This document shows, one piece after another, positions 327 to 34,365 of a DNA stretch of 64,000 nucleotides. The stretch covers positions 1 to 64,000 of the forward strand of contig CATKXW010000001.1 of NCBI GenBank assembly GCA_949840905.1, in the 5' to 3' direction. Below the pieces are notes generated by a model. The model did no database searches and was not told where the DNA came from. It saw only the letters and a list, made by a program, of their open reading frames with translations. Both the position numbers and the translations under genes were made by a program. The stretch is from an uncultured Eggerthellaceae bacterium (GTDB lineage Bacteria; Actinomycetota; Coriobacteriia; Coriobacteriales; Eggerthellaceae). Within the stretch, counting starts at the first letter, position 1, and the number at the start of each line of letters is the position of its first letter.

Positions 327-636
327 AGCGATCCGCTCCTTCCGACAAGTGTGATCCATTCACACCGTGGAGGAGGCCCTGTTCGTCGGATGATGCGTGC
401 TGTCGTTTTGCCGATGTGCGAGGAGGGCATCCACCACAGTCGGCAAACTGCGGAGACGCATATAATGACAGAATCAACTGCACACTAAAAAGCGTATCGC
501 GAAAGGCAGATGCCCTCCTCATACACTTTTCAGGTGCTACGGTAGACCGCGAGCGTACGAATAGGCCGCTGCAAACACCAGATGTTTCTATTCAGTTATA
601 TGCGTCTCCTCAGTAAGGAGTACCGCAGTTTGCCAT
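327..636 (-). promoter_or_regulatory. Structured 5' leader RNA, copy 1 (candidate riboswitch-like element)
   Basis: About 310 nt of transcribed leader in front of the surface gene. Seen on the minus strand: helix P1 joins 624-634 to 442-452 (11 bp) and 597-608 to 453-464 (12 bp), both perfect. A small CTCC/GGAG hairpin (606-620) sits between the P1 5' strands. A 10-bp hairpin (521-530 with 488-497) carries AGGGCATCTGCC (505-516) in its loop. That loop can pair over 12 bp, with two wobbles, with GGTGGATGCCCT (424-435), which lies just 3' of P1, making a pseudoknot. A second partner for 424-435 is 367-380 (12 of 14 positions). A 6-bp hairpin (349-365) lies just before the ribosome site. The same plan recurs at 33984-34260 with compensatory base changes. 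No match to a known riboswitch class was recognised by eye. Confidence 0.75.
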
Positions 637-31364: not shown

Positions 31365-33983
31365 CTAGGCATCGACCTCTATGGTCCAGATGAGGCTCGC
31401 CACGTTATGGTGAAGAAGCGTTGTCGTGGCGATATCGGGCTTGCCGACGGTTCGCAGCCGCACCGTCGCTTCGAGCTCTTTGCATATAGGACTGAACTCG
31501 GTGTCGAGCGTGCCGTTTGCGATGGATCTGGGTGCTGCCCCTGTCTGGCTCACCAAAGGCAGCTCGATCGTGCTCCCGCCATCCACGATAAGGTCGAGGA
31601 ACACTTTGTTCTTGCAATCATCCCCTGATGGGAACAGCCTCCTCGCGGCGCTCAGAGCAGTAGCGGAGCTGTCGGTCGTGACCGCAGACACCTTCACCGG
31701 CGTCTTGTTGTAAGTATAGAAGCGCAAGATATCCGCATCATCGGAAAGAGCCTCGTTCTCCGTGAGAACCTTGACCACGTCGATCGAGAGCGTCGTCAAC
31801 ACTGGCACGATGCAATCCAAGATAGGGCCGACATATTTCGCATACACGGTGGTGACCACCGGGGTAGAAGGCTGATCGTCATAGGGCAAGCTGAAATCGA
31901 ACGGCAGACGGAAGTCGGAGTTGATGTACCAGCCCGAGAAAGCATAGCTGTCCACGAACTCGAATCCAGGATCGGCGATCATGCCGTCCCCATCCGCCGC
32001 CACCGTCTTCCACACCTTCCAATAGGAAGGATCGCTCGGGTCCTTCGTGGTGTCGGGCACCATGAACTGCATGTAGGCGGCGCTGGTCGCATCGGTCGTA
32101 AGGCTTCTCCTGGCGGTGCTGCTATAGGAGGAGAACCAGTTCTGCAAGTTCGCGGACGGAGATGTGCAGTAGATGGAGACGGCATCGCGTTCGGCAGGCA
32201 ACCCCAAGAACTCAGCGGAACTCGCGCCTACCGCCCCTGCGGGAAAATCAAAGCCCGCGGGCAATATGCGCAGCGAGGACATGTCGTAGAACATGCGGGT
32301 AACGTTGGTGGCGGATGCGGGGACAGGATTCATCGAAGCTGGGAGGGAGGACAAAGACCAGCACCGCTCGAAGGCGGAAGCCAAGGAGAGCCCTCCTGGT
32401 AAGGAGAAGCCCTCGGGAAGGGACTCGAGCTTCACGCATCCGCTGAAGACGTTGGCGCAGTCAGCGCCCGGCACTCCTGCGCCGGTGGCGTTCGCGAAGG
32501 TGAAGCCATCGGGCAGCCCGGTCAGGTTCACACACGACTCGAACATGCCGGAAACGTTCTTCACGCTCGCGGGCAGAAGGAAGCTCGCGGGCACCGAGGC
32601 CACAGCTGAGCTGCTCAGAAGGTGCTTCACGTCTGTGCATCCTTCTGGAATGAAGGCTGAACCAAGGTCGGTCAGCGAGGTCATGGAACAAAACCAATAG
32701 GCCATCGAGTCGGTCTGCAGCCCCTCTTCCATGACCACAGAGGTCACCAGGTTGCGCACCCCATACCACGGAACGGCCGTCTCACTGCCAAAGGCACCGG
32801 AGATGACTCGTCCTTCCTTACAGTAGATGCGAAGAACGGAACCGGTAAGCTCCCAGCGAGCATCGGATGAGGTCGTCACATCCGTGAGCGCAGAGCCCAC
32901 ACCGGCAGACCAAACGCCATGGGCAAGATCACCAGAGAAGGCGATGGTATCGCCCGCTCCAAGAGGCACCACCGAAGAGAAGATGATGGGCGCGCTCTCT
33001 TCTTTCCCTACCGACTCGACCGACTCAACTGGTTCGGCCTCGACGATAGCGACCGTCTCCCCATCCAGCTTTTCGGTCTCTATCGCGAAGGAAAGAAGAG
33101 CGGCCGTCGCCTCCTCTTCCTCAGAAGCGTCTTCGCCGAGCGCATTCTCGGCGCTCATCACCCCCTCTTCTTCGGTCTCGACCACGACCTCGATAAGATC
33201 GTCTTGGGCATTGCGGAACTCAACATCCTCGAGGGCGAAAGAAGCTGCACTGTCCGCATCGACGGAGATGGAGCTCACCGCGAGGCAATGCGAGAACTCA
33301 TCGGGGTCCACCTCCGCGCCGGAAGCGATGCGGACAGCGCCCAGTCTGCCCTCGGGAATGAGCAGAAGGCAAGAGAGCGGCTTATCATAAAGACAGCCAT
33401 CGAAAGAGGCGTAGGCCTCGTTGTTCGGGGAAACATAGATGACCTGCAAGCGCTCCGATCCCGCAAGAGCGTTCGGGTCGATGAAGCTCACCGAAGAAGG
33501 GAACGCGACGAGCGGAGCATCGCAGGCGGAAAGGGCACCGGCAGCGATGGTCGCCACCGGATAGAGAACATCGTCGAGAACGAGCGCAGAGGGAACGATA
33601 AGATAGCCATCATCGGAGAGCTCGGCGTTCGCTGCGTTCACGAGCGTGAACTCGCCAGCCTCTGCATCGAAGGTGTAGACGCACCCGCGGACCACATACG
33701 TGGTGCGCACCGTAGAAGCAGGCGCTTCGGCGCTCTCCGCAGAGGCGAGCTCCACCACCCCTGAAGTGATGGTGGCCGCGCTCGCATCCATCATCGCGGA
33801 TGCCGGCACCATGATGGTGCGGCTTCTCGCCAGCTCGCTCGCCAAAGGAGCGATAGCGTTCACGTCGTCCTCGCCTTCGTCAGCGAAAGCTGTAGGCGTT
33901 GCGATCATGCAGCCGAGCGCCAGCATAAGAGCAAAAAGAGGGATGGTCACTCTATGAAAGAGTGCAGCAAAAGACGACCGCAT
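31365..33983 (-). CDS. Secreted leucine-rich-repeat (BspA-like) surface protein
   Basis: 872 residues. A signal peptide (ALFHRVTIPLFALMLALG, cleaved near TAFA at about 32-35) is followed by an N-terminal region with BspA-type repeat units (ALSACDAPLVAFPSSVSFID), an acidic linker near 275-340, and a central set of repeats of the form MFxxCxxLxxLPxxF (for example VFSGCVKLESLP, AFERCWSLSSLP). A Flg_new/InlB-B-like unit (FSGWYINSDFRLPFDF) lies near 700 and a beta-rich C-terminal domain ends ASLIWTIEV. No LPXTG motif or membrane anchor is present, so attachment must be non-covalent or the protein is released. GGAAGGAGC precedes the ATG. Confidence 0.85.
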   Translation of the reverse strand: MRSSFAALFHRVTIPLFALMLALGCMIATPTAFADEGEDDVNAIAPLASELARSRTIMVPASAMMDASAATITSGVVELASAESAEAPASTVRTTYVVRGCVYTFDAEAGEFTLVNAANAELSDDGYLIVPSALVLDDVLYPVATIAAGALSACDAPLVAFPSSVSFIDPNALAGSERLQVIYVSPNNEAYASFDGCLYDKPLSCLLLIPEGRLGAVRIASGAEVDPDEFSHCLAVSSISVDADSAASFALEDVEFRNAQDDLIEVVVETEEEGVMSAENALGEDASEEEEATAALLSFAIETEKLDGETVAIVEAEPVESVESVGKEESAPIIFSSVVPLGAGDTIAFSGDLAHGVWSAGVGSALTDVTTSSDARWELTGSVLRIYCKEGRVISGAFGSETAVPWYGVRNLVTSVVMEEGLQTDSMAYWFCSMTSLTDLGSAFIPEGCTDVKHLLSSSAVASVPASFLLPASVKNVSGMFESCVNLTGLPDGFTFANATGAGVPGADCANVFSGCVKLESLPEGFSLPGGLSLASAFERCWSLSSLPASMNPVPASATNVTRMFYDMSSLRILPAGFDFPAGAVGASSAEFLGLPAERDAVSIYCTSPSANLQNWFSSYSSTARRSLTTDATSAAYMQFMVPDTTKDPSDPSYWKVWKTVAADGDGMIADPGFEFVDSYAFSGWYINSDFRLPFDFSLPYDDQPSTPVVTTVYAKYVGPILDCIVPVLTTLSIDVVKVLTENEALSDDADILRFYTYNKTPVKVSAVTTDSSATALSAARRLFPSGDDCKNKVFLDLIVDGGSTIELPLVSQTGAAPRSIANGTLDTEFSPICKELEATVRLRTVGKPDIATTTLLHHNVASLIWTIEVDA

Positions 33984-34260
33984 GGCGATCAGCTCCTTCC
34001 GGTGTGTGTTCTCGTCACACCGTGGAGGAAGCCCTCGCTACCTATTCACAGTCGATTCCCGGCGACTTGTGTGAAAAGGGCATCCACCACAGTCGCCAAA
34101 CGTCATCACGCATACGATCACTCGAGTTTCCCAGAATGAACTACAGCCATGATGGGCGGATGCCCTTATCATTCTGTAGTCCAGAACAAGGAAAGCGAGA
34201 CAGGAACTCATATTCATCTGTATGCGTTCCTCCGTTGCCGGAGAGACGACGTTTGGCATC
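33984..34260 (-). promoter_or_regulatory. Structured 5' leader RNA, copy 2 (candidate riboswitch-like element)
   Basis: About 277 nt between promoter and ATG. Helix P1 joins 34248-34257 to 34095-34104 (10 bp) and 34220-34227 to 34108-34115 (8 bp), with a CTCC/GGAG hairpin (34230-34243) between the 5' strands. A hairpin (34174-34179 with 34141-34146) shows AGGGCATCCGCC (34155-34166) in its loop. This pairs over 12 bp with GGTGGATGCCCT (34077-34088), 3' of P1, as a pseudoknot. The competing partner is 34022-34035. A final hairpin GGTGTG/CACACC (34001-34021) abuts the ribosome site. Compared with 327-636 the P1 strands differ but still pair (GGCAAAC/GTTTGCC there, GCCAAAC/GTTTGGC here). Confidence 0.78.
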
Positions 34261-34264
34261 CCGG

Positions 34265-34293
34265 AATATATCAGACCGCCGCCGCCACTTCAA
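34265..34293 (-). promoter_or_regulatory. Promoter of the 872-residue surface protein gene
   Basis: TTGAAG (34288-34293) and TATATT (34265-34270), 17 bp apart, identical in boxes and spacing to the promoter at 642-670 although the spacer sequences differ. The predicted start, near 34258-34260, is the first base of helix P1. Confidence 0.68.
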
Positions 34294-34365
34294 ACGAAGG
34301 TTCAGGCGTCTCCATTAGCAGACAGCCCGTTTCCCCATTTCAGATGCCCAAGTGTAGTTTTTGTG

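Follow-up and report, generated by a model that had tools for sequence, protein, structure and literature searches.

The window, that is, the whole stretch of 64,000 nucleotides analysed here, begins with the start of a gene for a secreted protein on the minus strand (positions 1-326, MRVPVASLSRNLLSALFAVALTLGLVPTAAFA...), which is cut by the contig end. The gene is preceded by a leader on the same strand (copy 1). An earlier note had described three complementary segments in this leader, and all of its coordinates matched the sequence. The core of the switching strand, GGTGGATGCCCT (424-435, read 435-424), pairs with a segment of the loop of hairpin P4, AGGGCATCTGCC (505-516, read 516-505), at 12 of 12 positions including two G-U pairs, exactly as claimed. 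Equally exact was the second pairing, in which 12 of the 14 positions of an anti-Shine-Dalgarno (anti-SD) segment, AGGGCCTCCTCCAC (367-380, read 380-367), pair with 424-435. Both turned out to be longer than stated: the pairing with the P4 loop (hereafter PK) covers approximately 15 bp in full (GAGGAGGGCAUC/GAUGCCCUCCUC), with one mismatch in most copies, and the pairing with the anti-SD strand (hereafter ATH) extends to about 16 positions, of which approximately 14 are paired. A third helix (SDH) joins the anti-SD strand to the Shine-Dalgarno (SD) sequence. Such a triple of complementary segments appeared in none of 300 mononucleotide shuffles of the leader, and the same three segments recur in a second copy, where they agree with the earlier note at every coordinate (34088-34077, 34166-34155, and 34035-34022). 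The original observation is confirmed, and it is larger than described.

Anatomy of the leader

In the sense of the RNA, the first half of the element runs from the promoter through the P1 5′ arm, a small hairpin (P2, assigned by reading the sequence only), P3, a GAATA motif, and variable hairpins to P4 with its loop strand. The second half comprises the P3 3′ arm, the P1 3′ arm, the shared strand, the P5 3′ strand, the anti-SD strand, a hairpin, the SD sequence, and the start codon. All features of copy 1 lie on the minus strand. A sigma-70-like promoter is recognisable from the sequence just upstream of P1 (TTTGAA, 18 bp, TATATT; 642-671), with the same arrangement in most copies, and places the probable transcript start near position 635, at the P1 5′ arm. 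This arm, GGCAAACTGCGG (623-634), is the predicted 5′ end of the transcript and pairs with 442-453, while the P3 5′ arm, GGAGACGCATATAA (596-609), pairs with 452-465; the two 3′ arms together occupy 442-465 and were assessed by the fixed-register and cognate tests described below. Most copies in the two species of the genus carry the GAATA motif after the P3 5′ arm (589-593 in copy 1). Hairpin P4 (487-535, bounds approximate), whose stem was assessed by the cognate test, presents the loop strand GAGGAGGGCATCTGCC (505-520), the 5′ side of PK, to which the PK cognate tests apply.

The shared switching strand, CTGTGGTGGATGCCCTCCTC (420-439), can form PK with 505-520 or ATH with 364-380. The latter is the anti-SD strand, AGGGCCTCCTCCACGGT, which can in turn form SDH with the SD sequence, GGAAGGAGC (335-343), the first base of which lies 17 nt upstream of the start codon. 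Two partners are also available to the P1 3′ arm, namely the P1 5′ arm and the P5 3′ strand (TCGGCAAA, 404-417), the latter being the alternative partner of its portion TTTGCCGA (440-447). In most copies, the P1 5′ arm and the P5 strand have only their last few bases (GGC) in common.

Copy 2 is also on the minus strand and spans 33984-34294, with its promoter at 34265-34294, P1 arms at 34246-34257 and 34095-34106, loop strand at 34155-34170, switching strand at 34073-34092, P5 3′ region at 34057-34070, anti-SD strand at 34019-34035, and SD sequence at 33992-34000. The gene behind it (31365-33983, minus strand) encodes an 872-aa protein with a signal peptide and without a Pfam match at E 0.01. 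A conserved upstream open reading frame in the leader is unlikely, because the distance from the promoter to the shared strand varies from 162 to 242 nt among the copies of this genome without a common frame.

Copies, covariation, and energetics

A DNA search of this genome gave 30 matching stretches. With a covariance model of the 3′ part of the leader (R1), built from 25 copies, the count of matches rose to 36 here and was 43 in the sole congener examined. Among 58 other genomes, R1 produced only four single weak matches (G004, G044, G054, and G055; E approximately 1e-4); these were without the loop motif on reading, look like chance, and were rejected. The figure of 36 may not be the true count, because several contigs of the assembly (C26, C31, C10, C7, and C18) break off within a leader or the gene behind it, and some copies are divided between two contigs. 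We placed 74 full-length copies on common anchors (32 from this genome and 42 from the congener), leaving out one copy (L128) with misplaced anchors. The copies are mostly approximately 70% identical to copy 1 and, where readable, share one orientation, immediately ahead of a start codon. In copies that retain their 3′ end, the ATG follows 11-17 nt after the start of the SD sequence, nearly always 15-17 nt. The loop strand and its partner are the most conserved sequence of the leader. The earlier note had asked about homologues lacking the third segment; none was found in the genus. The anti-SD core has no or one mismatch in 72 of the 74 copies and two in another, and the remaining copy is cut by a contig end.

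Nearly all copies with a readable downstream frame are followed by a signal peptide, and Pfam assigned List-Bact (InlB-type) or BspA-type leucine-rich repeat (LRR) domains, some of them weak, to the tested proteins behind the leaders other than the 872-aa protein of copy 2. In a few cases (L091, L093, L098, and L124), the translated frame stops early. Not every List-Bact-repeat gene carries the element: three large genes of this kind (C4:3721-6405, C8:46434-48053, and C22:989 of this genome, G000) have no leader match nearby.

Covariation was first assessed in a fixed register over the 74 copies, with shuffles dealing the 3′ strands among copies of one species. P1 was 91.2% canonical, with 200 double-change cells compared with at most 70 in shuffles, and PK was 93.2% canonical, with 38 compared with at most 21. 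ATH was 96.7% canonical in 25 copies, and its lower half, mismatched position included, was 78.7% canonical in the fixed register, partly because some copies bulge a base. We therefore used a register-free cognate test, in which the duplex energy of a copy's own two strands was compared with that obtained using strands of other copies from the same species (2000 permutations, treating related copies as exchangeable). In this genome and the congener, respectively, z was −18.6 and −24.9 for P1, −13.6 and −17.7 for P3, −18.1 and −19.6 for P4, −7.3 and −8.6 for PK, −6.5 and −9.1 for P5, −4.3 and −5.0 for ATH, and −2.9 and −6.9 for SDH. Even the weakest result, SDH in this genome, corresponded to 8 of 2000 permutations. 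The control pairings of the loop with the anti-SD strand and of P1 with the anti-SD strand showed no cognate preference in either species (z between −1.1 and 1.1).

Two further candidate hairpins were noted. One, P4a, would form locally within the P4 loop (505-520; 34155-34170) at the expense of PK; its cognate z was −4.3 in this genome and 1.2 in the congener, that is, support came from one species only. Another possible hairpin (CACAAGTCG...CGACTGTG), within 34019-34070 and in copies with GTCGCCGGGAATCGACTGTGAA, may compete with P5 in a subset of copies, and complementary changes in it were seen by eye only.

The double constraint on the shared strand was analysed in an alignment (A2). There, PK was 97.7% canonical with 14 double-change cells and ATH was 91.6% canonical with 11; none of 500 shuffles reached values as high. 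Column 114 corresponds to a shared-strand base at which four rows have G in place of A. The PK partner is C in all four, and the ATH partner is C in two and U (a wobble pair) in two. This column, read from four rows, is the most direct sign of one strand serving two partners. The energies of the alternative folds, which the earlier note had proposed to compute, were obtained as well. Relative to the unconstrained nested minimum, enforcing ATH cost 2.5-2.7 kcal/mol; relative to the fold in which the PK strands were kept free, it gained 12.5-14.7 kcal/mol. The PK duplex alone is worth about −24 kcal/mol before the cost of closing the loop-loop contact. From these figures, the two states are predicted to differ in stability by no more than the uncertainty of loop-loop energies, which would allow switching without proving it. 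Of 71 copies folded with ATH enforced, 60 had a less paired SD sequence and three a more paired one; in the two subsets of 29 and 42 copies, it was less paired in 24 and 36 and more paired in none and three, respectively. PK and SDH can form together, and ATH excludes both.

Homologues across the order

A search with R1 and then with a second model running from the loop strand to the anti-SD strand with PK as its structure (R2) revealed homologues in 33 of 138 genomes of the family (16 genera, its own included). At the level of the order (E 1e-4), they were found in 45 of 397 genomes, covering 28 genera and three families, and among 396 genomes drawn from the phylum, matches occurred only in members of the same family. 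Copy numbers outside the genus were mostly one or two and reached five; only this genus has multiplied the element. In the genome-contig collection, the exact core pattern appeared only in the congener MAG CANOCK01, and no loci related by the downstream protein were found there. The viral contigs, plasmids, and phages searched contained no element.

The family-level matches are real homologues. In six distant ones, the pairings were cognate-specific at 13 (PK), 23 (ATH), 11 (SDH), and 5 (P5) of 720 permutations, compared with 165, 249, and 690 of 720 for controls. In 67 homologues from other genera (53 for ATH and SDH), z was −14.7 for PK, a statistic that leans towards PK as the homologues were found with a model containing it, −15.1 for P1, −6.1 for P5, −6.0 for ATH, and −7.0 for SDH. 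ATH, SDH, P1, and P5 were not in the search model as pairs, and the anti-SD strand was in it as sequence. With one homologue per genus, z was −9.3 (PK), −10.0 (P1), −5.2 (P5), −2.8 (ATH, 52 of 20,000 permutations), and −4.5 (SDH), and the three controls fell between −0.2 and −0.9. One control set the P1 3′ arm against the sequence beyond P5, which may partly include P5 partners; its z was −2.1 over all homologues and −0.9 with one per genus. Of all the helices, ATH is statistically the weakest across genera, as would be expected when a strand has to serve two partners. PK and ATH use one strand, each with cognate-specific complementarity, in two species and at least 20 further genera.

In distant homologues, the start codons of which were assigned by hand, the SD-masking helices are rebuilt with different sequences, for example, CCUCCACGG/CCGUGGAGG in L192 and GCUUCCCC/GGGGAAGC in L194. 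L192 (575-760) and L193, located before an EcoRI-type adenine methylase gene, have a P5 3′ strand that repeats the P1 5′ arm almost completely; in L192 the repeat spans some 12-15 nt, a nearly complete exchange. In five homologues from genera g6 and g66 (L208, L212, L213, L211, and L231), some 200 nt or more separate the element from the likely gene behind it, mostly with a palindrome (GTTGCGCAAC or GTTGCGTAAC) in between, and the expression platform seems to be different; no SD-coupled platform was evident in the g6 members L208, L212, and L213, at approximately 200 nt. Two other elements (L188:84-159 and L189:120-195) lie just downstream of a tRNA gene (Phe and Ala, respectively), perhaps an island insertion site.

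A putative translational switch and its relatives

Computation establishes the helices, their conservation and exclusivity, the shared strand, and the coupling to the SD sequence. Two exclusive conserved structures, one of them masking the SD sequence, emerge from sequence and folding, and the element is probably a cis-acting translational RNA switch in the mRNA leader, belonging to an order-level RNA family absent from Rfam. Transcription would start at P1, and P1, P2, P3, and P4 would fold. The P4 loop would pair with CUGUGGUGGAUGCCCUCCUC just after P1, making PK a loop-loop or pseudoknot contact. With PK formed, the later anti-SD strand AGGGCCUCCUCCAC would be free to pair with the SD sequence (SDH), and translation would be OFF. 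With PK absent, the shared strand would pair with the anti-SD strand (ATH), leaving the SD sequence open and translation ON. The two partners of the P1 3′ arm would provide a second, coupled strand exchange. We infer that the cell changes between these states and that the balance between PK and ATH depends on a bound signal, be it a small molecule, a protein, or a trans RNA. The suggestion that the choice of pairing could control access to the start codon gains support, as the downstream partner is the anti-SD strand, predicted from its sequence to pair with the ribosome site as well.

Two narrower forms of this explanation differ in what is bound. A metabolite-binding riboswitch, in which the P1-P4 domain with the conserved loop, GAATA, and GAC(U) joints would be the aptamer, is quite conceivable, if short of an even chance. 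It would fit the closed domain at the 5′ terminus, the conserved unpaired and loop positions amid variable helices, the single architecture in dispersed single copies across many genera, and a platform exclusive with the loop contact. Nevertheless, the genes downstream in other genera (lipoproteins, SHOCT/TM2, SHOCT/signal-peptidase, SPFH, zinc-ribbon, LRR, choline-binding-type repeats, and EcoRI-type methylases) and the BspA/InlB-type surface proteins form no common pathway, and 36-43 copies before one protein class in a genus would be unusual for a metabolite sensor. As SHOCT-like, band-7, and zinc-ribbon proteins have been reported as partners of envelope-stress systems (PMC11237479), an envelope-related signal could serve as a lead, not a result. 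The rather less likely form is a protein or small RNA acting in trans on the P4 loop or shared strand, one regulator for the set of surface proteins. Both the regulon-like distribution, with one genus's leaders standing before secreted proteins in nearly all readable copies, and the high conservation of the loop strand and its partner would suit such a regulator; no candidate was identified, however, no CsrA gene was found in the genome, and PK already explains the conservation of the loop strand.

Conservation proves that the pairings matter, not that they alternate in time, and a static leader might retain PK and ATH without any response to a signal, for a fixed translation rate, mRNA protection, or melting with temperature. 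We consider this unlikely, since two exclusive helices on one strand, both coupled to the SD sequence, would be an odd static design, and since ATH excludes both PK and SDH while these two tolerate each other. Least probable by far is a repetitive or mobile DNA element, or an invertible promoter with the long inverted repeat P1 as recombinase sites. The high copy number and the assembly contigs ending inside copies would agree with it, but near-identical copies at varied positions and orientations would be expected, whereas those observed are diverged, uniformly oriented, and fixed directly before start codons. Further, the promoter lies outside the inverted repeat, viral contigs, plasmids, and phages yielded no copy, and PK, P5, ATH, and SDH would be left unexplained.

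The translational switch thus remains our preferred reading. More tentatively, with the odds somewhat against it, the family might be a new order-wide riboswitch class, present as single copies before envelope or accessory genes and, in one genus, as 36-43 copies commanding secreted surface proteins with one signal for all; if so, one signal would set the translation of the whole surface repertoire. The element defines an RNA family with clear limits and no counterpart in Rfam 15, and covariation, including that at a doubly constrained base, directly supports both switch arms. Should the element prove to switch, one signal would control the translation of dozens of surface proteins in a single bacterium, and identifying that signal would explain how such surface repertoires are regulated. 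The naturally different pairings among the copies provide ready-made compensatory variants.

Rfam 15 gave no match to the element at gathering score in the window, nor at E 5 in positions 200-800. At E 0.5, 35 loci from the two species and other genera matched only tRNAs and sub-threshold miRNA or plastid models, and our literature searches found no description of this RNA. Collinsella-1 (RF01700), listed among the Rfam families, is alike in being a candidate structured RNA discovered through covariation in bacteria including gut actinobacteria (PMC2864571); none of the Rfam families searched matches the leader. Leaders controlled by CsrA/RsmA are similar in the control of SD access, and control by CsrA is argued against, no CsrA gene having been found in the genome. 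Classes of c-di-GMP riboswitches are known to occur in several copies per genome before surface or adhesion genes, a likeness to the present leaders, which matched no Rfam model of these classes. No GGDEF domain was found in 6 of 23 near-complete genomes carrying the RNA (G157, which is 99% complete, G134, G244, G097, G068, and G174), nor in the congener, whose genome has 43 copies and is only 85% complete, and c-di-GMP is therefore unlikely as the sole or general ligand. The leader also matched no Rfam cobalamin model; it differs from corrinoid riboswitches in gene contexts that are not B12-related and in a long contact of 12-15 bp, compared with the UCCCG-type L5 kissing loop of cobalamin riboswitches. 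What it would share with the translational type of these riboswitches is that a loop-loop contact with a platform strand decides the hairpin at the ribosome site, as in the cobalamin riboswitch, where the L5-L13 kissing loop stabilises P13 and promotes the ribosome-binding-site hairpin (PMC10653944).
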